A DNA stretch of 32,131 nucleotides from positions 1 through 32,131 of the forward strand of contig JAJDYI010000054.1 in the NCBI GenBank assembly GCA_022825235.1. The letters run 5' to 3'. Position 1 is the first letter of the stretch. Each line of letters opens with the position of its first letter. Position numbers and translations under genes: made by a program. This stretch comes from Alphaproteobacteria bacterium. GTDB taxonomy: Bacteria > Pseudomonadota > Alphaproteobacteria > TMED109. Shown one piece after another: positions 1,504 to 15,772 of this stretch. The notes under the pieces are model-generated. The model worked only from the letters and a program-made list of their open reading frames with translations. It searched no databases and was not told the origin of the DNA.

Positions 1504-2784
1504 TCAGGGCGTGTAATGCGGCACGACGTAGGGGCCCTCCGGCACGAACGCCACCCGGGGATCGCCGGCTTCGGTCACACTCCGGGCAATAGCGTCCTCG
1601 ACCGAATCGATCATCGCGACTCCGGTCAGACTGCGCTCCTCTTCGCTGAGGCCCGTCGTGTAGAGCGAGACGGTGCCGGCCCGCATGGGGGCGAGCTGCT
1701 TTTCGGCCTGCCATTCGTCGACGTCTGCATGCCGCTTGTCGAGAAGGCTCTCCAGGAACCGGTCGGGCCCCAACGCGATGAGACGCCGCTGGGCATCCAC
1801 GTACTCGGGCGACCCCATGCCTTCCGAGCAGGCGGAGACGACGATGAGGTTCCCCTTCGGCGACAGGATGTCCAGCGGCCCGACCATGCCCTTGACCGTC
1901 TGGTAGTAGGTCTTGTCGAGCGGGTAGCCGGCGCTTGACGTGACGATCGTCGGAAAGCGCTCGGATACCGGAAGCTCCGTGTACGCGCGCGTGAACGCCA
2001 CCGCCTGCAGGTGGCTTTCCACGATCTCGCCGTAGTTGACGAAGGACATCCGGCGTTCGTCGTCCAGGACCGTGTTGATCGCGTAGGCGCCGCCGATCAT
2101 CCGGACGACCTCGAGCTGGTCCTCGTGCAGCGGGTTGTCCGTGAGGACGCAGTTGGCGGCGTGCGGGTTTTCCATGTAGCGGGCGCTGTGGAACGTGGTG
2201 ATGGTGTCGGCGTGCGCGACGCCGGGCGCGATGATCTTGCGCCCGCCCGAGTAGCCCGCCATGAAGTGCGGTTCCACCAGGCCGATCGCGAGGCGCAGGT
2301 CCGCCTCGACGAACCGCCGGTCGAGCTTGATGACGTTGCCGCGCCGGGTCGTCCCCGCCTCGACGTGGTCGGCGTCGCGGCGCGCGAAGTGGTTCACCAC
2401 CCGGAACGTGTCGAGGACCCACGCGTCACCCACCACTTCGAGGAGTTCGTCGCCCTCGTTCGGTCGATGGAGCCCGGTCGCCACGAGCACCGTGATTGCC
2501 TCGGCCGGCAGCCCGCCCGCGAGCAGTGTGCGCAGCACCGCCGGCAGGATGTCGCCGTTGGGAACGGGACGGGTGATGTCGCAGATCAGGACGCAGGCCG
2601 ACCGGGCGGCGGCCGCGGCTTCGTGGAGCGGCGGCGCGCCGACCGGCGCGGCGAGCGCGGCGGCGACCGCATGTGACGGATCGGCCAGCACCGGCATCTC
2701 AGGCTTCCGGAGCACGGTGGCGCGCCACGCGTCCGCGACTGCGACGCCGAGGGATCCGCGGTCGTAGTTCAAGTCAACGCGCAT
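1504..2784 (-). CDS. larA: Nickel-dependent lactate racemase family protein LarA
   Basis: A 426-residue LarA-family enzyme, which interconverts D- and L-2-hydroxyacids using a nickel-pincer nucleotide bound covalently to a lysine. The residues known from Lactiplantibacillus plantarum LarA are present in order: His106 (ATGLHRP), His173 (VEPHF), Lys183 (SGGRK, the cofactor attachment site) and His199 (TTFH). A later lysine in YPLDKTYYQTVK is also conserved. The start MRVDLNY is chosen over an ORF extension of 24 residues that would run deep into larB; the chosen ATG overlaps the larB stop region by 11 bases. The three cofactor genes lie immediately upstream, so the enzyme can be matured. LarA homologues act on other hydroxyacids too, so lactate is not certain as the substrate. 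Confidence 0.93.
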   Translation of the reverse strand: MRVDLNYDRGSLGVAVADAWRATVLRKPEMPVLADPSHAVAAALAAPVGAPPLHEAAAAARSACVLICDITRPVPNGDILPAVLRTLLAGGLPAEAITVLVATGLHRPNEGDELLEVVGDAWVLDTFRVVNHFARRDADHVEAGTTRRGNVIKLDRRFVEADLRLAIGLVEPHFMAGYSGGRKIIAPGVAHADTITTFHSARYMENPHAANCVLTDNPLHEDQLEVVRMIGGAYAINTVLDDERRMSFVNYGEIVESHLQAVAFTRAYTELPVSERFPTIVTSSAGYPLDKTYYQTVKGMVGPLDILSPKGNLIVVSACSEGMGSPEYVDAQRRLIALGPDRFLESLLDKRHADVDEWQAEKQLAPMRAGTVSLYTTGLSEEERSLTGVAMIDSVEDAIARSVTEAGDPRVAFVPEGPYVVPHYTP

Positions 2785-3478
2785 GGGCGGCTCCGACCGG
2801 GTCGGCCCGGTTAGCACGAGCGTAGCCGACCGCGCGCAACGCGGCGCAGGCGGCACCGAAGCCGTTATCGATGTTCACGACCACGACCCCGGGGCTGCAG
2901 CTGGTGAGCGCACTGTTCAGCGCGGTCTCCCCGCGCCGGGCGGCGCCGTAGCCGGTGGAGACGGGGACGGCGATCACCAGTCCCGGGACGAGCCCGCCGA
3001 TGACGCTCACCATCGCCCCGTCCATGCCGGCAACCGCGATGACCACGTCCATTTCCGCGAGCCGGTCCACCTGCTCGAGTACCCGCCACAGTCCGGCGAC
3101 GCCCACGTCGCACACCAGTTCGCAAGCGACGCCCGCGTAGGCGAGGGTCCGGGTCGCCTCGTGGGCCACGCGCGCATCGGACGACCCGGCCGTCACGATG
3201 GCAATCCGGGCAGGCCCTTCCGGCGGTGCGACGGCTCCGAAGATCCCGGTCTGCGAGAGGGCGTGGTAGTCGAGCACAGCCGCGTGCTCGGCGCGCAACG
3301 CCTGAAACTGCGGCTCCGACAGGCGGGTCAGGAGCATGCTGCGGCCGCTGTCGGCCGCTTGTTTGAGGATGTGTGCGAGCTGCGCTGGGGTCTTCGTCTC
3401 GCAGAGGACCGCCTCCTCGAGACCGATGCGGGCGCGCCGGCCGACGTCGAGCCGGACCTCGCGGCTGGCGTCGTTCAC
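2774..3478 (-). CDS. larB: Nickel-pincer cofactor biosynthesis protein LarB
   Basis: A 234-residue LarB, the carboxylase/hydrolase that converts nicotinic acid adenine dinucleotide to pyridinium-3,5-biscarboxylic acid mononucleotide, the first step of nickel-pincer synthesis. The C-terminal two thirds resembles PurE, with IVTAGSSDARVAHEA, AGMDGAMVSVIGGL and the glycine-rich STGYGAA segment. The N-terminal part has the LarB-type LDVGRRARIGLEEAVLCETKT stretch. The start is taken as GTG at 3478, which forms a GTGA overlap with the stop of larE; the longer reading frame upstream is out-of-frame larE sequence. Length fits the family (about 240 residues). It lies in the tight larC-larE-larB-larA series, so translational coupling is likely. 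Confidence 0.92.
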   Translation of the reverse strand: MNDASREVRLDVGRRARIGLEEAVLCETKTPAQLAHILKQAADSGRSMLLTRLSEPQFQALRAEHAAVLDYHALSQTGIFGAVAPPEGPARIAIVTAGSSDARVAHEATRTLAYAGVACELVCDVGVAGLWRVLEQVDRLAEMDVVIAVAGMDGAMVSVIGGLVPGLVIAVPVSTGYGAARRGETALNSALTSCSPGVVVVNIDNGFGAACAALRAVGYARANRADPVGAAHAR

Positions 3479-4293
3479 GGTGCGTCCTTGCCGACCACGG
3501 CGCTCCCGCGCCGGTACGGCGCGAAGCCCACGGCTCCCGGTCGCCCGGCCGGCGCGAAGAGGGCGCGGACGCGCTCGCCCCATACGCTCTGCTCGTGCCG
3601 GTCGATTCCGGCGAGGGTCGGCGGGTCCAGTTCGATCACGACACCGCCCGCGCGCACCCGGCAGCGGACCGTCTCCGGCGCGAGTTCCCGCCGGAGCAGG
3701 CGCTCGGCAGCATCGACGGCGCGCAGGTCGTCGCCGGCGATGCCGATCCCGGTCTCGACGCGGCTCGAGAGGCAGGGTGAAGCCGGCAGGTCGGCGAACT
3801 CGTGCAGGCCGTGGGCGACCGCGAGCCGGCGGATCCCGGCCTTGTCGATGCGGGCCTCGATCCACGGATGGCGCACGGCGTGGTCGGCGGCGGCCTTGAG
3901 CCCGGGCCGAAAGTCGTCGAGGTCGTCGAGGTTGGCCCCGGAGAGCACGGTCGACGCGGTGTGCTCGCGGACTGTCTGGTAGAGGTTCTGCTTGCAGTAG
4001 AAGCAGCGGTTGACGGGGTTGCGGAGGTAGTTCGGGTCAGCGAATTCGCCGGCGTCGATGATGCTGAGCGGCCAGCCCTCGGGCTCGGCGCGCGCCCGCA
4101 GCCGCTCGGTCGCCTCGGGGGGGACAGCCGGAGAGACGGCGTGGAACAGCCGCGTCTCGGAGGGGTTCCGGGCCAGCGCGAGCGCTCCCAGGGTGGTGCT
4201 GTCGACGCCGCCGCTCACGGCCACGGCCACGGGCCCCAGCGTGTCCAGCACGCCGTGGAGGGCATCCAGCAAGTCAGTCGTTGTCGTGGTCAC
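3475..4293 (-). CDS. larE: ATP-dependent sacrificial sulfur transferase LarE
   Basis: A 272-residue LarE, which adenylates the carboxylates of the LarB product and transfers sulfur onto them. The PP-loop SGGVDST is at residues 27-33. The family-typical NRCFYCK is at 96-101, and PASPCLSSR at about 170-178 carries Cys174, which lines up with the sulfur-donating cysteine of L. plantarum LarE. Some LarE proteins instead use several cysteines around an iron-sulfur cluster; which applies here is not decided. The GTG at 4293 is chosen as the start because it places the PP-loop at the usual distance and overlaps larC by only 20 bases; the ORF extension to 4479 would be read-through of larC in another frame. 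Confidence 0.92.
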   Translation of the reverse strand: MTTTTTDLLDALHGVLDTLGPVAVAVSGGVDSTTLGALALARNPSETRLFHAVSPAVPPEATERLRARAEPEGWPLSIIDAGEFADPNYLRNPVNRCFYCKQNLYQTVREHTASTVLSGANLDDLDDFRPGLKAAADHAVRHPWIEARIDKAGIRRLAVAHGLHEFADLPASPCLSSRVETGIGIAGDDLRAVDAAERLLRRELAPETVRCRVRAGGVVIELDPPTLAGIDRHEQSVWGERVRALFAPAGRPGAVGFAPYRRGSAVVGKDAP

Positions 4294-5494
4294 GCTCGCT
4301 TCCAACGTGGTCTTCGTGGGTGTCGCCGAGCGCCTGCCGTTCGGCCCGGGCACGCAGTTCCGCCCGCCCCGCCTGCCCGACGCCGGCGGCCCGGAGATCG
4401 GCAAGTTCCGCCTTCGCTGAACGCGCGCCGTCGGGGCGCGTCGCCACCTTAACGCGGATCGGATGCTCTGCACCATCAACGCTCATCATGGTGCGCGGCA
4501 GGAGGAAGCGCTCCGTGAGCGTCCAGCGGAGCCCGAGGGTGGTGGTCTCGCGGAAGCACCGGTCGGACACGGCGCGGGCCTGTTCGGGACGGGCCAGCAC
4601 CTGGATACGGGCGGCCAGCCGGTTCTCCTTGCCGCTGACGGCGTGCTGGGAGACGTCGAGGACGCCGTCCGCCGCGCGCAGGCGCTCGAGACCGACCGCG
4701 AGATCCTCCGGCGACTGGTCGTCCACCTCGAAGGTCAGCACGGCGACCCGGTCCGCCTCCGGGTTTTCGGCCGCTGGCTCGTAGAACTGCGCCCGAAGGA
4801 CGTTGCTCCGACCTTCGAACGTGCTGCTTCCGAACCCGTGCCCGGTGGCGCGCAGCCGCCGCGGGACGAAATCCGCCGCCTGTTCCGGTGCCAGATGGCG
4901 GAGGATGGCGGCCCCGGTCGGCGTGATGCGCTCGCCGTCGATCCCGTCGTCGACCAGCACCATGCCGTCCAGCAGCCGGCTGGTCGCCGGGGCGGGAATC
5001 GGAAGCATGCCGTGCTCGGTCCGGACCATGCCGCGGCCCCGGGGCAGCGCGCCGCACGACCAGCTGGGCGACCCGGCGGCCTCGATCAGCGCCGCCGCGG
5101 CGACCAGGTCGACCGGCGTGTCGAGGCCGCCCAGTTCGTGAAACGACACCGCGGTCTCCGGGATTCCGTGCACGCCGGCTTCCGCCTCGATCAGCAGCGC
5201 CAGAATGTCGAGGGCCCGCATGCGCACCGCCCGTGCGAGCGACGCCCGTGCGATCCATTCACGGACGACGTCTGCCGGCGTCGCGTGCGGCGGCGCGGGG
5301 GACGTGACCCGGAAGCGGCGCCCGCACAGCACGCCGTCGCTGTGCGTCTCGAACGCTATCGACACCCGGTCACCGAGCCCGAGGGCCTGGACGGCCGCCT
5401 CCACGGCTTCTGCGTAGTCGGGACGGGCGTCGACCATCGATGCCGCGAACATGTCGCCGGCCGCCCCTCCTACTGCATCGAGATGAACGTGCAT
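4274..5494 (-). CDS. larC: Nickel insertase LarC, single full-length ORF
   Basis: A 406-residue LarC, the CTP-dependent enzyme that inserts nickel into the pincer nucleotide. The family opening is seen as MHVHLDAVGGAAGDMFAAS, followed by FHELGGLDTPVDLV, EHGMLPIPAPAT and ITPTGAAIL in the first half, and the VLTFEVDDQSPEDLA and CFRETTTLGLR stretches of the second half. In L. plantarum the two halves are separate frames joined by programmed frameshifting; here they are one continuous frame. The ATG at 5494 is chosen because the family begins at this motif; the upstream extension of about 100 residues is low-complexity and unsupported. It is the first gene of the lar operon, so the promoter should lie in 5495-5753. 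Confidence 0.92.
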   Translation of the reverse strand: MHVHLDAVGGAAGDMFAASMVDARPDYAEAVEAAVQALGLGDRVSIAFETHSDGVLCGRRFRVTSPAPPHATPADVVREWIARASLARAVRMRALDILALLIEAEAGVHGIPETAVSFHELGGLDTPVDLVAAAALIEAAGSPSWSCGALPRGRGMVRTEHGMLPIPAPATSRLLDGMVLVDDGIDGERITPTGAAILRHLAPEQAADFVPRRLRATGHGFGSSTFEGRSNVLRAQFYEPAAENPEADRVAVLTFEVDDQSPEDLAVGLERLRAADGVLDVSQHAVSGKENRLAARIQVLARPEQARAVSDRCFRETTTLGLRWTLTERFLLPRTMMSVDGAEHPIRVKVATRPDGARSAKAELADLRAAGVGQAGRAELRARAERQALGDTHEDHVGSERDHDND

Positions 5495-5753
5495 CGGCGG
5501 GTCCTCGGGAGCGGGGGACGACGTGTGTGGTCCGGAAGGGCCGGCGTCGGCCCGCCGGCACGTCCGGGGGTCGCGGGGGGGTGCTGCCGACCGGAGGCGT
5601 CGGCCGCCGCGTGCTGTAAGGTGCGGCCCGCGAGTGTACCACCGGCGTGCCGCCGGCCGTGACGGCTCGCCCCGTCGGGACGCGCTGCCGGGGTGTGCGG
5701 CGGGCGGTGTCGAGGGTCCACCCGGCGTCGCACCCAGAGGGAGCCCGAAGTCC
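5495..5753. other. Divergent promoter region between larC and the SDR gene
   Basis: These 259 bases separate the first lar gene (minus) from the SDR gene (plus) and must hold promoters for both if the genes are independently expressed. The stretch is very GC-rich. No convincing -35/-10 pair, nickel-regulator site or long inverted repeat was recognised. The sequence gives no direct sign of how the lar genes are regulated, and no larR-type regulator is present in the window. Confidence 0.4.
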
Positions 5754-6518
5754 ATGCAACCAGTTTGTCTCGTGATCGGCGCCGGTGCCGGAATCGGCGG
5801 CAATGTCGCGCGGCGCTTTGCCCGCGACGGCTACCACGCGGTGCTGTGCCGACGAACCGACGAAGAGGGCCTGAAGACACTGGTCGCGGGCATCACGGCC
5901 GACGGCGGGAGCGCATCAGGCTTCCTGCTGAACGCCGTCGAGCCCGACAGCATCGAGCAACGGGTCGCGGACGTGGAGGCGAACATCGGCCCGATCGAGG
6001 TCGTGGTCTACAACCTCGGCGCCCAGATCGGCAACCGGACCCTCGCGGACACGAGCTACAAGGCATTCGAGCGCGGCTGGCGCATGGCCACGTTCGGCCT
6101 GTTCCGCACGGCGAGCAGCGTGTGCCCGCACATGGTGGAGCGCGGCAAGGGGACCATCCTCGTGACCTCGGCCACGGCGGCGATGCGCGGGAACAAGGAG
6201 CAGCACTCGCACGCCGCGGCCATGGGCGGTCGGCGCATGCTGTGCCAGTCCCTCAACGCGGAGTTCAGCGCCAGGGGGATCCACGTGGTCCACATCCTCA
6301 TCGACGGGGCGGTGGATGCACCGGACACTCTCGGGAAGATGCTCGGGCCGGAGGCCTTCCAGAAGCTCCGCGAGGAAAGGGGGCTGGAACACGACGGGCT
6401 GCTGGTGCCCGCCAAGATTGCCGAGACGTACTTCCACCTCGCGCACCAGCACCGCTCGGCCTGGACGCACGAGCTGGATCTTCGGGCATTCTCGGACCTG
6501 CCCTGGTGGAATCACTGA
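5754..6518 (+). CDS. Short-chain dehydrogenase/reductase homologue lacking the catalytic Tyr-Lys pair
   Basis: A 254-residue SDR-fold protein. The nucleotide-binding glycine motif is GAGAGIGG (residues 9-16), close to but not the classical TGxxxGIG, and YNLGAQ replaces the usual NNAG. The catalytic serine is likely Ser139 (LVTSAT). Where the active-site YxxxK should follow, the sequence is HAAAM (His153 to Met157), so both catalytic residues are changed while the surrounding helix is kept. This resembles a known subgroup of classical-like SDRs with an altered active site, though that group keeps the Lys. The start ATG at 5754 places the glycine motif at the usual distance. It is divergent from the lar operon, which may hint at a shared substrate class. 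NAD(P)-binding is likely; ordinary dehydrogenase activity is doubtful. Confidence 0.85.
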   Translation: MQPVCLVIGAGAGIGGNVARRFARDGYHAVLCRRTDEEGLKTLVAGITADGGSASGFLLNAVEPDSIEQRVADVEANIGPIEVVVYNLGAQIGNRTLADTSYKAFERGWRMATFGLFRTASSVCPHMVERGKGTILVTSATAAMRGNKEQHSHAAAMGGRRMLCQSLNAEFSARGIHVVHILIDGAVDAPDTLGKMLGPEAFQKLREERGLEHDGLLVPAKIAETYFHLAHQHRSAWTHELDLRAFSDLPWWNH

Positions 6519-8318: not shown

Positions 8319-8705
8319 CTACCAGATGACCTTGCCCGGATCGCCCTTGTAGAGCGAGCGGATATAGGCGATGACCTTCCAGATTTGCTCGTCGGTCAGG
8401 CTGCTGGACCAGCCCACCATCGTGGTGCCCTTCCGGCCCTTGGCGATGGCCTTGAAGATCGTCGCGTCCGTCGGCCGGTAGACCCACTGGTCGTCGGTCA
8501 GATCAGGGCCGACCGCTCCGCCGGCCTCCTTCCCGTGGCAGGCGTAGCAGCCGGTCTCGGCCCACAGCCGCTTGCCCTGGGCGATCGCGTCGGGGTCGCC
8601 TGTAAACGGATTGGTGTCACCCTGGGCCGGGGCCGGTAATGCAGTCCAGAGAACGGCAGCCAGGCCGGTCACCAGGAGAGAGTTCGCGAAGAGCTTGAAG
8701 CGCAT
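8319..8705 (-). CDS. Class I c-type cytochrome, likely electron acceptor of the PQQ dehydrogenase
   Basis: A 128-residue periplasmic cytochrome with a signal peptide (MRFKLFANSLLVTGLAAVLW, cleavage near PAQ-GD). The single haem motif is CYACH (Cys53, Cys56, His57), and Met96 in GTTMVGW is the likely sixth haem ligand. The ending TDEQIWKVIAYIRSL is the usual last helix of class I cytochromes. It lies 106 bases downstream of the PQQ dehydrogenase on the same strand, so it is the obvious carrier for its electrons, as cytochrome cL or XoxG is for methanol dehydrogenase. A strong hairpin separates the two genes and may set their ratio. Confidence 0.9.
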   Translation of the reverse strand: MRFKLFANSLLVTGLAAVLWTALPAPAQGDTNPFTGDPDAIAQGKRLWAETGCYACHGKEAGGAVGPDLTDDQWVYRPTDATIFKAIAKGRKGTTMVGWSSSLTDEQIWKVIAYIRSLYKGDPGKVIW

Positions 8706-8736
8706 GACGGCTCTGGTGGGACAAGGGAAGAAGTAG

Positions 8737-8769
8737 CCCCGGGGGAGAGCGTGGCGCTCTCCCCCGGGG
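8737..8769 (-). terminator. 15-bp hairpin between dehydrogenase and cytochrome genes
   Basis: The arms at 8737-8751 (CCCCGGGGGAGAGCG) and 8755-8769 are perfectly complementary over 15 bp with a 3-base loop. It lies 42 bases after the dehydrogenase stop and 31 bases before the cytochrome start. On the minus strand it is followed by CTACTTCTT, a weak T-rich tail, so partial termination or protection of the upstream message against 3' decay is the natural reading. The hairpin is directly visible; its role is inferred. Confidence 0.65.
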
Positions 8770-8811
8770 ACCTCAGAATACCGCGAGTCGGTTCCGACTG
8801 CGGTCGCCGGC

Positions 8812-10536
8812 CTACCGGTCGAAGAGGCCGAACACCATCAGGTAGCCGCCCTTGCGGCTGTCCTTCAGCTGCGGTGCGCCGCCCTTTCCGAAGATGGCCC
8901 AGCCGGTCCAGCCGCCGAAACCTGCCGGTACGGCGACGTACTGCCGGCCGTCGATGGCGTAGGTCATCGGGCTGCCGAAAATGCCGGTGCCGATGTTGTA
9001 GGAGAAGAGCTCTTCACCAGTGTCCTGCTTGTACGCCTTGAACTGACCCTCAGGCGTTCCCGCAAACACCAGGCCACCGCCCGTGGTGAGCAGCCCGCTC
9101 GTGTACGGGGAAGGCGCCTTGACGGTCCAGACCTTCTCACCGGTCCGTCCGTCGAACGCCACCAACTGCCCGTAGCCCGGGTTCCAGCCGATCGTGCCAA
9201 TGCCCCAGTAGGGCTTGCCGACCGTGCGTTCGGGCGGGTTCAGCCCCTCGCCGAGCGGCGCGCTCTTGATGTCCACGCAGATCTCGCGGCTCGGCACGAA
9301 GATCATCTTCGTATGCGGATTGACCGACATCGGGTTCCACCACTTGCCGCCTTCGGACGCCGGACAGATGTCCTTCGCCTCGTAGTCGTAGGTCGGCACC
9401 TTTTCCGGATTGACGATGGGCCGCCCCTCCGGGGTGAACCCGGTCATCCAGTTCACCTTGGAGATCGGAACGCCCCAGACGAAGCTGCTGTCCGTCCGAT
9501 CGATCGCGTACAGGAGCCCGTTGCGGTCGCCGTGGAAGTAGAGTTGGCGCCCGTCCACATCCATCAGGACCGGCTCGTTGTTGCCGTCGTAGTCCCACAC
9601 GTCGTGCGGGGTGTACTGGTACCAGTGCTTGATCTCTCCGGTGGAGGGATCAAGGGCCAGGGTGGTGTTGGAGTAGAGGTTGTCCCCCGGGCGGTCGACG
9701 CCGTCCCAGTCGGGGTTCGGGTTGCCAACGCCCCAGTAGAGGGTGTCGAGTTCCGGATCGTACGCACCGGTGATCCATGCCGAGGCCCCGCCGTACGCGG
9801 CGGCTTCCGCACTGCCCCAGCTGTCGTGGTTCGGCTCACCCGGCGCGGGGATGGTGTAGCGCCGCCAGACCTGTTCACCGGTTGCCGAGTCGAGGGCCTC
9901 GATGTAGAGCCGGGTCGGGTATTCCGCTCCGGACATCCCCACGATCACGTTGCCCTTCACGACGAGCGGGGCGACGGTCATCGTGTAGGCCTCTTCCCAG
10001 TTTCCGATGTTCCTGTGCCAGACGACTTCGCCGGTCTTGGCGTCGAGGGCCACCACGTCCGAGTCCGGCGTCGCGACGAAGACCTTGTCGTGGTACAGGG
10101 CGACCCCCCGGTTGCCGATGTCGCAGCACATGTTGCCGGCAACACCCTCGGGAATCTCGTCGTAGTACCGCCAGATCTCGTCTCCCGTGCGGGCGTCGAT
10201 GGCAAACGTCCGGCCGTGCGACGCGGTCGCGTACATCACGCCATTGTTCACGAGCGGAGTCGTGTTCTGGGCGTCAAGAACGCCGAACGAGAATGTCCAC
10301 TTGGGCACCAGCCGCTTGATGGACTTGGTGTTGATCTGGGAAAGCGGGCTGTACCGGGTGCCCGAGTAGTCCCGCGGCGCCATGAGCCAGTTGTTGGGGT
10401 CCTGACCCGCTTCGAGCAGCATCTCGTCGGTGACGTAGTCCTGCGCCGAGGCCGGACCCGCAACCAGTGCCAACACACCGGCAACGACTGCTCCCAGGAT
10501 GAGCGAGCCGGTCGTCCCAACGGTTCGAGTAGTCAT
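8812..10536 (-). CDS. PQQ-dependent alcohol dehydrogenase, lanthanide type
   Basis: A 574-residue periplasmic quinoprotein of the methanol/ethanol dehydrogenase family, with a signal peptide ending GPASAQ. Beta-propeller tryptophan-docking repeats recur (for example DAKTGEVVWHRNIGNW and DGRTGEKVWTVKA). Cys137-Cys138 form the adjacent-cysteine pair that stacks on PQQ. Metal ligands are Glu205 (SGAEYPTR) and Asn290 (YSNTT), and Asp315 is the catalytic base in DVWDYDGNN. Asp317, two residues on, is the extra acid that marks lanthanide-dependent enzymes such as XoxF and PedH; calcium enzymes have Ala there. The ATG at 10536 has GGGAGGAAA just upstream, so the longer ORF is rejected. The alcohol substrate is not determined. 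No PQQ synthesis genes are in the window. Confidence 0.92.
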   Translation of the reverse strand: MTTRTVGTTGSLILGAVVAGVLALVAGPASAQDYVTDEMLLEAGQDPNNWLMAPRDYSGTRYSPLSQINTKSIKRLVPKWTFSFGVLDAQNTTPLVNNGVMYATASHGRTFAIDARTGDEIWRYYDEIPEGVAGNMCCDIGNRGVALYHDKVFVATPDSDVVALDAKTGEVVWHRNIGNWEEAYTMTVAPLVVKGNVIVGMSGAEYPTRLYIEALDSATGEQVWRRYTIPAPGEPNHDSWGSAEAAAYGGASAWITGAYDPELDTLYWGVGNPNPDWDGVDRPGDNLYSNTTLALDPSTGEIKHWYQYTPHDVWDYDGNNEPVLMDVDGRQLYFHGDRNGLLYAIDRTDSSFVWGVPISKVNWMTGFTPEGRPIVNPEKVPTYDYEAKDICPASEGGKWWNPMSVNPHTKMIFVPSREICVDIKSAPLGEGLNPPERTVGKPYWGIGTIGWNPGYGQLVAFDGRTGEKVWTVKAPSPYTSGLLTTGGGLVFAGTPEGQFKAYKQDTGEELFSYNIGTGIFGSPMTYAIDGRQYVAVPAGFGGWTGWAIFGKGGAPQLKDSRKGGYLMVFGLFDR

Positions 10537-10553
10537 TGTGGTTTCCTCCCATC

Positions 10554-10573
10554 GAGGATGAGCATCCATCCTC
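10554..10573 (-). promoter_or_regulatory. Leader hairpin upstream of the PQQ dehydrogenase ribosome-binding site
   Basis: GAGGATG (10554-10560) pairs perfectly with CATCCTC (10567-10573) around a 6-base loop, and the GGGAGG ribosome-binding site follows a few bases closer to the start codon. The hairpin would lie in the untranslated leader of the dehydrogenase message. It could affect stability or ribosome access; a chance repeat of this size is also possible. Confidence 0.3.
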
Positions 10574-10804
10574 AGCCAGACGTAGCATAAGGGCTGAGAG
10601 CACGCCGCACGTGGGACGGGACGAACTGCTCGCCCCAGGGAGGACACGACCGCTGCCCCCAGGCCCCGAGCGGGGCGTCACTTCGGCAGCGCGTGGACCG
10701 GCCAACGTCTTGTGGCTCTTGCGGATTTCTGCCCGAACAACCGAACCAGAATCCAGAGCCACGGGCTTGACGCTTCACTTCCGAACGATCAGGTGAAGGC
10801 GCCG

Positions 10805-11476
10805 TCAACCCGCGCGCGGTACCGTCACGCCGATGAGGCTGTCCCTGGTCACCAGTCCGGCCAGCTCTTCCTCGCTCATGCCTTCGGTGCCGGCCGGTCG
10901 CGCCGGGAGGATCATGTACCGCATGTCGGCGGTACTGTCGTGCACCCGGACGGCAACGTTCGGGTCAAGCTCGGTTCCGAACTCGGCGAGCACCGTGCGG
11001 GGCTCGCGCACGGCCCGGCGCCGGTAGTTCCGCGACTTGTACCAGTCGGGCGGCACTCCGAGCAGGAACTTCGGGTAGCACGAGCACAGGGTGCACACCA
11101 CCAGGTTGTGGGTTTCGGGGGTGTTCTCCATCACGAGGATGGGGATGGGCCCGGTGTCGATGCCCAGTTCCGCCGCCGCCGCCCTGGAATCGGCCAGCAG
11201 GCGCTGGCGAAACCCCTCGTCGGTCCATGCCCGGGCCACGAGGCGCGCGCCGATGCCCGGGTTGAGGCCGTCCATCCGCTCGACCTGGGCCCGCATGTCA
11301 TCGCCGCTGAAGATCCCCTTCTCGATCAGGAGCGAGGTTACCGCCATCTGCATCACCTGGTGGCGGGCGAGCGGGGTGTCCTCGAGGTCCGGTTGCGGAG
11401 GATGGCGGTGCGTCGGGTCCACGTCATAGCCGCCGTGGTCGTGCTCGTGCGAATGCCCGCCGGCGGGCTCGTTCAT
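10805..11476 (-). CDS. Cobalt-type nitrile hydratase alpha / thiocyanate hydrolase gamma subunit
   Basis: A 223-residue metal subunit of the nitrile hydratase family. The claw motif VCTLCSC places Cys128, Cys131, Ser132 and Cys133 at the metal; Thr (not Ser) in the second position indicates cobalt, and two of the cysteines would be oxidised after synthesis. PPDWYKSRNYRRRAVREPRTVLAEFG is the conserved stretch that follows. The usual YPW after the motif is YPK here. The first 27 residues are unusually rich in histidine (HSHEHDHGG, THRHPP), suggesting metal binding. The start ATG overlaps the preceding stop (ATGA). Because the partner beta subunit is encoded as two genes, the arrangement matches thiocyanate hydrolase (subunits beta, alpha, gamma) and three-subunit nitrile hydratases such as the toyocamycin enzyme. 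Which substrate is used is undecided. Confidence 0.88.
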   Translation of the reverse strand: MNEPAGGHSHEHDHGGYDVDPTHRHPPQPDLEDTPLARHQVMQMAVTSLLIEKGIFSGDDMRAQVERMDGLNPGIGARLVARAWTDEGFRQRLLADSRAAAAELGIDTGPIPILVMENTPETHNLVVCTLCSCYPKFLLGVPPDWYKSRNYRRRAVREPRTVLAEFGTELDPNVAVRVHDSTADMRYMILPARPAGTEGMSEEELAGLVTRDSLIGVTVPRAG

Positions 11477-11781
11477 GCCGGGTCTCCCGACACCGGCTCC
11501 AGCCAGTGCTCGTAGATCTCGATTTCGACGCGGTCGTGTTTGCTGCCCCCGTAGTCGGGCCAGAGCGAGGTGCTGGCGAAACCGACCCGGTACAGGACTT
11601 CCGGGGTCGCCTCGCGGTTCCCGTAGGCGAGCTGCTCCGGATTGCGGAAGCGTCCACAGATCCGTTCCACCTCGCCGGTTTTTCCACGGCAGTACCAAGG
11701 GGTGCGGACGTGCCCCGGAGGGAATCGCTCGTGGACCCGGACCCGGGTACCCGGCGTGAAAAGCGGCGCCGGGCGGCTCAC
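11473..11781 (-). CDS. C-terminal half of split nitrile hydratase beta (thiocyanate hydrolase alpha-like)
   Basis: A 102-residue protein equal to the SH3-like second half of a nitrile hydratase beta subunit: FTPGTRVRVHERFPPGHVRTPWYCRG (read in parts) with the GHxRxPxYxRGKxG signature, then RFRNPEQLAYG and the ending IYEHWLEP. The LWPDY segment is closer to what is recalled of thiocyanate hydrolase alpha than to the LWG of ordinary nitrile hydratases; this is memory, not a search. GTG at 11781 overlaps the previous stop as GTGA, and the frame upstream of it is out-of-frame sequence of the neighbour. The subunit supplies part of the active-site pocket over the cobalt centre. Confidence 0.83.
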   Translation of the reverse strand: MSRPAPLFTPGTRVRVHERFPPGHVRTPWYCRGKTGEVERICGRFRNPEQLAYGNREATPEVLYRVGFASTSLWPDYGGSKHDRVEIEIYEHWLEPVSGDPA

Positions 11782-12098
11782 GGAAGGGCTTCCCGGCGGC
11801 CGGTTTCGATCTCCGCCATGCGTTCTCCGAGCTCGTCGACCTCGATGATCCTCTTTTCGAGCAGGAGGTTTGTCATCGAGGCCATCCACCGCTCGTAGTA
11901 GCAGTAGCGATCGTAGGCGTCGGCTCCGAGCTCCTCGATCCCGCGGCGAAGCTCGTCGACCGTCAGGATCCCCTCGCGTCCCAGGAGCACCATGAGCGCA
12001 TCCACCCGTTTTTCCCACGGCGCGTGATCATGCTCGTCGCGGTCGACAGGACCGGCTTCGAGGCCGCCCATGTCGTGGTGGCGCCGTGCTTTGTCCAT
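11778..12098 (-). CDS. N-terminal half of split nitrile hydratase beta (thiocyanate hydrolase beta-like)
   Basis: A 106-residue protein equal to the helical first half of a nitrile hydratase beta subunit. The family opening is seen as HHDMGGLEAGPV, followed by APWEKRVDAL, DELRRGIEELG and the YCYYERWMASMTNLLLEK helix. In ordinary nitrile hydratases this continues directly into the SH3-like half; here a stop and a GTGA overlap separate the two, so the pair is made as two chains. The Asp-Glu-His-Asp-His stretch (DEHDHAP) adds to the histidine-rich character of this operon. ATG at 12098 has AAGGAA five bases upstream. As first gene of the three, it should be preceded by the promoter in 12099-12392, where none was recognised. 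Confidence 0.83.
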   Translation of the reverse strand: MDKARRHHDMGGLEAGPVDRDEHDHAPWEKRVDALMVLLGREGILTVDELRRGIEELGADAYDRYCYYERWMASMTNLLLEKRIIEVDELGERMAEIETGRREALP

Positions 12099-12392
12099 GG
12101 CGGTTCCTTCTTGCCCCTTCTCAGCGCCAGGCTGCCTTCCGGCGTGCCGGTGTCGGCGATGACTCGCGCGTCGTCGGACAGGGTACCGGAAGCAACCCGG
12201 AAGCGGCGAGGGGCGTGCCAGGCACACGCACCGGCGGGCAGCCGTTCCGCCACCCGTTCGGTCTGGTACCGGTGGCAGGCGCTTGGACGGCCGTCCGGAT
12301 TGGCGCTTCCCGGTGAGTACCTTGGGCCCGCCGCTGGGCCTGGGCTCCGTTTCCTGGCGCGGGGGGCGGCCGAACCGGAACGCCCGGCGGCG

Positions 12393-12902
12393 CTATTCGG
12401 AGTAGGAGGGGACGCTGTCGATGGCCGCGGCGTATTGGGGGACGCAGGTGCCGAGATACTGCTCTGCCGCCTGCTGGAGGTCGTCATTGGATGCCAACCC
12501 TGCCAGAGCCTGCTCCGGTTCACTCAACAGGGCGTTGTGACCGCCACCCGGACCTCGGGCGAGCTCGCGCATCCATTGCCGGCACTGTCCGCCGACTTCA
12601 GAACGAAAGACCTGGTCGATCACGGGCACGCAGGTATCCAGGTACTCCTCGGCCATTCGGACCGGCCCCCCTCGCCCTGCGAGGACAGCGACAAATCCGC
12701 GGGCAATCTCCTCGTCGGGGCTGTGAAGACGAGCCGTCCCCCACGGCTGGAGTTCCGCCCAGAGCGTGCCGCACCGATCATTCCAGGCAGCCACGCGTTT
12801 CCGGGCCTCATCGTCGTATGTTGCCTGCGCGTGGACGGCGTTCGGAACGGCAAGCGAGATCGAGAGCGCCGCGATGGCGCAATAGGCGAGTGGTCTGGTC
12901 AC
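12393..12902 (-). CDS. Secreted protein of unknown function with repeated cysteine motif
   Basis: A 169-residue protein with a clean signal peptide (MTRPLAYCAIAALSISLAV, cleavage near HAQ). No family is recognised. Two segments resemble each other, AEEYLDTCVPVIDQV near residue 84 and AEQYLGTCVPQYAAAI near residue 143, so the mature protein may hold two related helical units, each with one cysteine; further cysteines in NDRCGTLW and GGQCRQWM would allow two disulfides. It lies upstream of the split nitrile hydratase operon on the same strand with a gap of nearly 300 bases, so co-transcription is uncertain. Periplasmic location is the only safe inference. Confidence 0.6.
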   Translation of the reverse strand: MTRPLAYCAIAALSISLAVPNAVHAQATYDDEARKRVAAWNDRCGTLWAELQPWGTARLHSPDEEIARGFVAVLAGRGGPVRMAEEYLDTCVPVIDQVFRSEVGGQCRQWMRELARGPGGGHNALLSEPEQALAGLASNDDLQQAAEQYLGTCVPQYAAAIDSVPSYSE

Positions 12903-13233
12903 GAGGGCCTCCCCGGGTTCGTATCAACCAGCGGGGCGACCTGGCCGGCCCACGGCAATCGCCCGAGCATACGCTGCCCGGCGCCGCCTGGCGGTCCCTT
13001 CCGCGGCTCCGCTGCCGGCGGATTGCCCCCGGAGATGCCGGACGGCTGCACGCGGACAGGGCGCAAACTCGCAATGCGGAAACGCCGGGTCGGAAGCGCG
13101 TCGGCGCCGGTCTCCCGGTGCGCTGGCCGCGGGACCGCGGGCGGCGTTTGCGGGGGCGAGGAAGTACCCTCCGGTGAGCGGGCGCTGCAGGCCTGTCGGC
13201 CGGGGTGCCGGGAGCGGGTAGCCGGAATTCCCA
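12903..13233. other. Divergent intergenic region
   Basis: About 330 bases between the secreted-protein gene (minus) and the DUF488 gene (plus). It should contain a promoter in each direction. No clear promoter boxes, repeat, RNA gene or long palindrome was recognised, and overlapping open frames here look like products of high GC content. Confidence 0.4.
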
Positions 13234-14439: not shown

Positions 14440-14826
14440 TCACGCTGCCTCGATATCGGTACGCATGAAGTCCGCTCCCTTGTAGAGCAGTGGTTCGCCT
14501 GTGACCTTCGCGAGTGCGTAGGCAATGCAGTCCCCGAAATTCAATCCGGCCGGATGCTGGCCCTTGCCGAACTGTCTCCAAGCCTGGCGCGCGACAGCTA
14601 CCTGCTCGGATGTCACAGGGACCAATTCGATCGCCGCTCTCTCCAGCAACGCATCTAGCTCGAGGCCCGCCTGGGCGCCGCCCCTGCCTTCGATGACCAT
14701 GGCAGCTTCCAGGACCGCGACGGCGGACATCCGACGAGGGGATGCCGCCGCGATGGCATGTTCGTAGCGGGCAGCATCCGCTTCCCCGAACAGGATGGCG
14801 AGGATGGCCGAGGTATCGATGATCAC
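14440..14826 (-). CDS. vapC: VapC-type PIN-domain ribonuclease toxin
   Basis: A 128-residue PIN-domain protein with the four acidic residues in place: Asp4 (MIIDTSA), Glu40 (VAVLEAAM), Asp99 (NFGDCIAYA) and Asp119 (KGADF). VapC toxins cut tRNA or rRNA when freed from VapB. Length and layout are those of a whole, working member of the family. The ATG overlaps the vapB stop as ATGA, giving translational coupling. It is the only classical toxin in this window without a visible defect. Confidence 0.9.
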   Translation of the reverse strand: MIIDTSAILAILFGEADAARYEHAIAAASPRRMSAVAVLEAAMVIEGRGGAQAGLELDALLERAAIELVPVTSEQVAVARQAWRQFGKGQHPAGLNFGDCIAYALAKVTGEPLLYKGADFMRTDIEAA

Positions 14827-15080
14827 CTGGGGAGACCTTCATCGTCATAGAGCACGTCGCCATGATCGACGGCTGCGGGTCCGGGCTCGAGGAGTTGTGA
14901 ACAGCGCTGACCAATGGCATGCAAGTCCTTCGCGAGATCATTCGCTCCGCGCTGCCGTCTTTCGCGTTCCAGTCGTTCGCGTAGCGCTACCGTAATTGCC
15001 CCGGTCTTCGTTTCGCCGGTAAGTTGCGCCAGTTCGCCGGCCAGCCTGCATGTCTCGTCGTTCTTGATATTGAGGCCCAT
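14823..15080 (-). CDS. vapB: VapB-type antitoxin
   Basis: An 85-residue VapB antitoxin of the Rv0623-like group: MGLNIKNDETCRLAGELA, then TGETKTGAITVALRERLERER, the DNA-binding fold of this group, and an acidic C-terminal tail (VDHGDVLYDDEGLPR) that would fill the toxin's active site. The ATG at 15080 is chosen because the family begins with this motif; the upstream extension would cross the operator. A perfect 9-bp inverted repeat ends 12 bases before the start codon, as expected for autorepression. Confidence 0.88.
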   Translation of the reverse strand: MGLNIKNDETCRLAGELAQLTGETKTGAITVALRERLERERRQRGANDLAKDLHAIGQRCSQLLEPGPAAVDHGDVLYDDEGLPR

Positions 15081-15091
15081 TGCCTTTGTCC

Positions 15092-15117
15092 GGTAGAAAG
15101 TAGCAATTCTTTCTACC
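15092..15117 (-). promoter_or_regulatory. Candidate VapBC operator (9-bp inverted repeat)
   Basis: GGTAGAAAG (15092-15100) and CTTTCTACC (15109-15117) are perfect inverted repeats with an 8-base spacer, directly upstream of vapB. VapBC complexes bind such palindromes to repress their own operon. The repeat is directly visible; binding is inferred from the family. Confidence 0.6.
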
Positions 15118-15772
15118 CTAAATGCCCCCACGCTGATCGGCAACGGTGACGATCCACGTAGAGGGTGTCACCGGCCTCCCGCAAGCTGCTTTGGCTCGAG
15201 GCAGCGCTGACGGCGTAGGTGGCGCTCGCGCACGAGGACGACGTAACCGTCCGGCTGGTGCGATTGGCGCTAGTGGATGCCCGAGACCGGGCCGATACGC
15301 CCGGCCAGCAGACTGGGGAATTTTACTTCGGCACTACCTGGGAGCTTTCATCCGGCACCGACAATGCACGATGGATCGCGTCGGTCGGTCTGGCGGGGGG
15401 CGGAGCGTTGTGGTCCTGCCGAGTGAGAATGATGCGCCGTGCAGTCGTGTTGACTGGGAGCGGCCCTTTCAGGGGGTGGGTCTTCGAAGAGCGGTTTGTT
15501 CATGACGCACAAGTTGCTTGACTGAATTCACGCTGGCAGGCTTTCTGGCGCTCCAAAATGATGCCAAATAAGGCGTACTTTAGAAACGGGACGTTTGTAC
15601 ATCACCTTGAAAATCATGCGTGATGTCCGCAACGCAGGCTGTCAAATATGGCGTCAAAGAGGCTGCCAAATATGAACTGGCACGCATTCGCATTCGAGTA
15701 CGAATTGCGCGCTGCTGGCATTCTCGCAGGTGTCCAAACCGTCGAATTGATGCGCATTGGTCGGCGACAAAC
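15118..15772. other. Gene-poor stretch between vapB and the ParS-like antitoxin
   Basis: About 650 bases with no gene that can be named. A plus-strand frame at 15219-15521 is open for 100 codons but has no recognisable motif. The part from about 15520 to 15720 is richer in A and T than the rest of the window. GGCTGTCAAATATG (15637-15650) recurs with one change 24 bases later (15661-15674). Both strands were read for a RES-domain toxin, the expected partner of the neighbouring antitoxin, and none was found. Confidence 0.4.

Follow-up and report, generated by a model that had tools for sequence, protein, structure and literature searches.

Which reaction is catalysed by a member of the nitrile hydratase superfamily whose beta subunit is encoded in two separate pieces, and is the split itself genuine? 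This question is raised by a locus within a 32,131-nucleotide stretch of DNA from an alphaproteobacterium (contig JAJDYI010000054.1; hereafter, the window). The original prediction described the locus as an operon with separate betaN, betaC and alpha genes coupled by GTGA and ATGA overlaps. The open reading frames (ORFs), their translations and a Pfam scan, in which all three domains (beta N-half, beta C-half and alpha) scored far over the cut-off, confirm this organization, with the following features:

11778-12098, minus strand: betaN, 106 aa, 12.4 kDa, the free N-terminal half of the nitrile hydratase beta subunit (PF21006, E 8e-21)
11473-11781, minus strand: betaC, 102 aa, 11.7 kDa, GTG start, the free SH3-like C-terminal beta half (PF02211, E 8e-21)
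10805-11476, minus strand: alpha, 223 aa, 24.6 kDa, with a His-rich N-terminal tail and the CTLCSC metal claw (PF02979, E 1.5e-75)
11078-11095, minus strand: codons of CTLCSC, the Co-type metal claw (alpha residues 128-133), read from the translation
11069-11071, minus strand: codon AAG of alpha Lys136, at the aligned position of gammaArg136 in thiocyanate hydrolase (SCNase), where ordinary nitrile hydratases have Trp
11778-11781, minus strand: GTGA stop/start overlap of betaN and betaC in the sequence, recurring in relatives; suggestive of translational coupling
11473-11476, minus strand: ATGA stop/start overlap of betaC and alpha in the sequence, recurring in relatives

The motif SLWPDY lies in betaC and CTLCSCYPK in alpha. 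Upstream of betaN is the sequence AGAAGGA, which resembles a ribosome-binding site; a consensus scan of positions 10400-13000 detected no sigma-70-like promoter, a result that is weakly informative for such an organism. The published naming of related genes, as nitrile hydratase and SH3-like domain-containing protein, fits the betaN/betaC/alpha operon. Comparison of alpha with the curated models gives 238.5 bits against the NCBIfam nitrile hydratase equivalog, just below the cut-off of 249.85, which counts against a nitrile hydratase, and 215.0 bits against TIGR03887 (thiocyanate hydrolase gamma; cut-off 291.45), for which bona fide SCNases score 381-397, which counts against an SCNase.

The split could be an artefact: a sequencing error at 11778-11781 might have interrupted the beta gene of an ordinary nitrile hydratase with two subunits, an explanation that had been raised along with the original prediction. 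Homology to a fused beta subunit, and nothing more, speaks for such an error. The split, however, recurs within the genus group, where six independent genomes out of seven (the source genome counted) share three separate ORFs; betaN, betaC and alpha are likewise separate in 80 named loci in other genomes. Overall, betaN and betaC are distinct ORFs in 92 distinct loci of the window's lineage, in the order betaN-betaC-alpha in 90 of these and betaC-alpha-betaN in the other two, and most inspected junctions show NTGA stop/start overlaps, in relatives of only ~60% identity. Because the overlaps and the separate ORFs recur in such distant relatives, the split is far older than the present assembly; it is real, attributable neither to chance nor to a frameshift, and sequencing error is ruled out as its cause. 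Separately, several loci (L149, L150, L151, L154 and L162 from Gammaproteobacteria, as well as L110 and L135) encode ordinary nitrile hydratases of the YPW type with the beta halves in different ORFs and an activator nearby; these are possible cases of independent beta fission or frameshift within the nitrile hydratase clade.

To place the operon, we compared 92 lineage loci with 11 SCNases (nine genomes over the curated cut-off and two plasmid SCNases annotated scnC) and 45 ordinary nitrile hydratases; the Thiobacillus thioparus chains that served as SCNase reference were checked against PDB 2dd4 and agreed with it. Group labels came from the pocket residue after CTLCSCYP, and the tree built from all columns still separates the groups without exception. 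The split between ordinary nitrile hydratases, on one side, and the window's lineage together with the SCNases, on the other side, is supported at 100/100 in the concatenated tree, 100/99 with alpha alone, and 100/100 with betaN and betaC alone. Forcing the window into the nitrile hydratase side was rejected (AU test, p 3.9e-5). Thus, the contention that this is not an ordinary two-subunit enzyme is borne out by the AU test and the trees, and together with the conserved split this leaves an ordinary enzyme with a broken beta gene with a practically negligible probability.

The phylogeny against SCNases and two-subunit enzymes, which had been proposed as a check, puts the window's lineage on the SCNase side, and this position counts against a nitrile hydratase. 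It also brings to the fore the possibility that the operon encodes a thiocyanate hydrolase, which would convert thiocyanate to carbonyl sulfide and ammonia, with Lys136 in the role of SCNase gammaArg136; the lineage-specific positions point in the same direction, with 13 common to SCNase vs 6 common to nitrile hydratases. The SCNases themselves form their own clade (100/100) on a long branch, with the window outside; joining the window to SCNase was not rejected (AU p 0.22). The split lineage is monophyletic in 24% of the bootstraps, and the comparison of SCNase as sister to the whole lineage with SCNase nested in the lineage yields AU p 0.34. The first SH-aLRT tree nested SCNase beside a soil plasmid clade, a placement that we do not claim because the constrained tree scored better. 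Judging from the trees, the lineage may be the large, mostly uncharacterised source from which SCNase arose. Some SCNases carry fused beta halves, namely, those of the Azospirillum and Roseomonas plasmids, in which ScnB and ScnA are fused in one gene (4054-4905 of L164; 4047-4898 of L165), so that beta fission or fusion alone is no marker of function.

The second shell of the active site distinguishes the lineage from SCNase. The second-shell residues betaGlu56 and betaHis147 matter for nitrile hydratase catalysis (PMC8278588); in the window, E55 of betaN aligns with betaGlu56 and H24 of betaC aligns with betaHis147. Glu and His occupy these positions in all 92 lineage members and all 45 ordinary nitrile hydratases, whereas all 11 sampled SCNases have lost both, with Asn or Ala in the first position and Tyr in the second. 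The retained second shell is the strongest sequence argument for nitrile hydration and against thiocyanate hydrolase. A survey published in 2023 noted enrichment of the SCNase family in Alphaproteobacteria (PMC10098168), and parts of the window's lineage may already have been counted as SCNases there; the SCNase label for this lineage is disfavoured because the second-shell residues are kept.

The substrate pocket tells a different part of the story. Directly after CTLCSCYP, 86/92 sequences of the lineage have a basic residue (79 with Arg and 7 with Lys; the other 6 have Val), and 11/11 SCNases have Arg, vs 0/45 basic residues in ordinary nitrile hydratases, which have Trp, Phe, His or Thr; the Fisher p of 5e-30 for this difference counts related sequences and is descriptive only. 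The Lys variant occurs in the genus group of the window and, outside it, at a single locus (L038). The original prediction singled out YPK in place of YPW: the residue is indeed unusual, but it does not represent a new state given that YPR is present in 79/92 relatives and 11/11 SCNases, and YPK is, by this alignment, a conservative variant of the lineage's usual YPR. The proposed leaning of LWPDY toward SCNase holds weakly, in that P (62/92) and Y (73/92) are enriched on the SCNase side, but the W is universal.

The basic residue at the gammaArg136 position recalls SCNase, whose substrate choice is, we presume, set by gammaArg136 together with betaArg90. The entry PDB 3vyg differs from wild-type SCNase solely by R136W. 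The lineage shares betaArg92 and betaArg111 with SCNase, which favours the same function, but at the other pocket position, that of SCNB Arg90, 82/92 members have Leu (L50 of betaN in the window), which disfavours it. Among the other arginines, R51 of betaN aligns with the active-site betaArg, R52 of betaN is common to SCNase, and R26 of betaC is universal; CTLCSC is kept in 92/92 lineage members.

The original prediction also reported no dedicated activator gene, and this holds across the source genome, which is 96.3% complete. The activator model TIGR03889 matched only betaN there, below the cut-off, and PF21006, which also detects activator-like domains, had one match, betaN itself. Of 20 split-lineage genomes that were scored (SCNase controls left out), 19 likewise contain just one PF21006 match. 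TIGR03889 exceeded the cut-off in 7 of 36 genomes, 6 of the 7 with an alpha subunit of the ordinary nitrile hydratase type (in G178 and G056, additionally), with G789 outside that tally. Given that TIGR03889 is blind to the SCNase-type helper, we also used a custom betaN profile. With this profile, an extra betaN-like ORF was detected near 1 of the 59 lineage loci with long flanks, the exception being a frameshifted betaN; near 9 of 10 SCNases, where the ORF is activator-like; and near 30 of 45 ordinary nitrile hydratases, many of which have short flanks.

Clustering of the neighbours around 74 lineage loci revealed no conserved partner gene, only lineage-specific housekeeping neighbours. Amidase genes are found near 9/30 ordinary nitrile hydratases, 1/66 lineage loci and 0/8 SCNases; this near absence, as with SCNases, counts against a nitrile hydratase and in favour of an SCNase. 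Cobalt transporter genes show a different distribution, being located near 7/8 SCNases, 6/66 lineage loci and 2/30 ordinary nitrile hydratases. The activator-like gene and the cobalt transporters are thus typical of SCNases and not of the lineage. The His-rich alpha tail, initially taken as a point for SCNase, was dropped as a marker because it is present in nitrile hydratases too. Given the score below the TIGR03887 cut-off and the absence of the SCNase pattern of lost residues, we reject a bona fide SCNase, and consider thiocyanate hydrolysis by this operon to be quite improbable.

The basic pocket could instead indicate a new substrate class, with a small cyano compound that is anionic or carries a carboxylate (cyanate, a cyanoacetate-like molecule or a marine cyano metabolite) as the substrate and the cationic pocket as the deciding feature. 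The basic residue in 86/92 members, the stand-alone operon with no conserved neighbour, and the distinctness from both curated families are consistent with this possibility. Nevertheless, nothing observed here points positively to such a substrate, and a related YPR-type arrangement, that of Microvirga flocculans, is reported to act on neutral nitriles, so that a basic residue need not imply an anionic substrate; we regard this possibility as unlikely. A broader version, in which the lineage is a large, widespread, activator-free third branch of the superfamily, marked by its cationic pocket and acting on a cyano substrate that is anionic or strongly polar, and SCNase evolved within or beside it by loss of the second shell, has somewhat better prospects, although we still consider it doubtful. 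We also considered a connection with the sponge Aplysina cavernicola and its aeroplysinin-1 nitrile hydratase but dropped it, that activity being Mn-dependent, with peptides lacking homology to nitrile hydratases (PMC3766881).

Other genes of the window and of the source genome deserve mention in their own right. Downstream of the operon, 8319-10647 on the minus strand encodes a PQQ-dependent dehydrogenase of the methanol/ethanol family followed by a c-type cytochrome; these were rejected as functional partners because they are shared beside the operon by genomes of the same genus only. A secreted-looking protein of 169 aa with no Pfam or NCBIfam match (12393-12902, minus) is conserved upstream of betaN in the genus. 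The region 1504-5803 (minus) encodes a LarA-like nickel racemase, below the family cut-offs, along with LarB and LarC, which are above the cut-off, and represents a nickel-pincer cofactor cluster; it adjoins the gene for the alpha subunit of a Rieske-type ring-hydroxylating oxygenase (215-1351). A VapBC-like toxin-antitoxin pair, with a PIN domain and an Rv0623-like antitoxin, is encoded with an ATGA-type overlap at 14440-15143 (minus). Elsewhere in the source genome (contig C6, 37409-45986; loci L002, L003 and L004), there are two peptides resembling RiPP precursors of the NHLP family (TIGR03793, above the cut-off), which end in WCCCGQ and LCCCW, and, in the same region, a third leader of NHLP-like type that is joined to a domain resembling squalene-hopene cyclase; this is a possible RiPP cluster, with leaders similar to the C-terminal half of the alpha subunit of nitrile hydratase. 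On plasmids of Streptomyces, Rhizobium and Agrobacterium (L131, L134 and L210), aquaporin genes adjoin three-gene YPR enzymes, with a gene for cytochrome P460 or DUF302 and cobalt transporters nearby.

Taken together, the operon probably encodes a Co-nitrile hydratase of three subunits that needs no activator and has a cationic pocket. We favour this assignment because of the full-strength domains, the invariant CTLCSC, the second shell, the missing activator and the published precedents. Coupled translation would yield betaN, betaC and alpha in equal amounts, with one chain of each in the assembled unit and, probably, an (alpha-betaN-betaC)2 hexamer as the oligomer. The CTLCSC claw of alpha is predicted to hold low-spin Co(III), two of its cysteines being oxidised post-translationally. 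Free betaN, which is homologous to nitrile hydratase activators, probably serves also as a metal and subunit-swapping chaperone, like AnhD of Streptomyces canus, or else alpha might mature unaided; betaC would then complete the active complex. A nitrile bound near the metal would take up water to give the amide, at a site supported by betaGlu, betaHis and the universal beta arginines. With Lys136 where the substrate pocket ordinarily has Trp, nitriles bearing an electron-rich or anionic group are likely to be preferred.

If this assignment is correct, three-subunit, activator-free Co-nitrile hydratases, described so far from a few bacteria of soil, are common among Alphaproteobacteria of marine and soil habitats, and thiocyanate hydrolase would likely have emerged against this background. 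The lineage combines the nitrile hydratase second shell with the SCNase-type cationic residue and so separates two features that are usually discussed jointly, so that mutagenesis could directly probe which residues define a thiocyanate hydrolase. Enzymes that need no activator also make expression for nitrile biotransformation simpler.

Among the characterized enzymes, the two-subunit Co-nitrile hydratases of Rhodococcus rhodochrous J1 and Pseudonocardia thermophila share with the window the fold, the CTLCSC claw and the second shell but, unlike the window, have a fused beta subunit, an activator gene and Trp in the pocket, and belong to a separate clade. The SCNase of Thiobacillus thioparus (PDB 2dd4) shares the split beta, CTLCSC, the basic residue at gamma136 and the side of the tree, and the sampled SCNase genes follow the order betaN-betaC-alpha, as in the window; SCNase differs in lacking betaGlu56 and betaHis147 and in having betaArg90, an activator-like gene, often cobalt transporters and a long branch. 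The toyocamycin nitrile hydratase ToyJKL of Streptomyces rimosus, an (alpha-beta-gamma)2 hexamer with chains of 21.2, 10 and 11.4 kDa (PMC8574189), when compared by its description, is likewise a three-subunit enzyme but is dedicated to an antibiotic pathway; no toyocamycin-type genes were found among the scanned genes of the window. The plasmid nitrile hydratase of Microvirga flocculans, which hydrates flonicamid, has, as summarized in PMC11573777 (original, Zhao et al. 2020), three genes and a split beta, as in the window, but with alpha between the two beta genes. This beta-alpha-beta layout is found also in plasmids of Rhizobium, Agrobacterium, Polymorphobacter and Microvirga terrae, all of the YPR type and on the window's side of the tree; the M. 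terrae locus (L207) has Arg, not Lys, and an adjoining cobalt transporter.

A close parallel is AnhDEA of Streptomyces canus CGMCC 13662, with the order betaN-betaC-alpha, no activator gene and a D2E2A2 complex, which hydrates acetamiprid, thiacloprid and benzonitrile, AnhD acting as a metal and subunit-swapping chaperone (PMC7329996). The second-shell residues of this enzyme have been named as AnhD-Glu56 and AnhE-His21 (PMC13243292). By a constant offset, Tyr108, Leu110, Lys121 and Arg160 of AnhA correspond to Tyr134, Lys136, Lys147 and Arg186 of the window's alpha, with Ser83 off register; this numbering, taken from docking residues, implies Leu at the pocket position of AnhA vs Lys in the window, which counts against a nitrile hydratase. 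As judged from its publication, AnhDEA and the window share the gene order, an activator-free genome and the second-shell Glu and His, and the chains are of similar size (10.4, 11.4 and 21.3 kDa vs 12.4, 11.7 and 24.6 kDa). Thus, with S. canus AnhDEA and the M. flocculans enzyme as precedents, the three-gene, activator-free architecture of the window is no new class.
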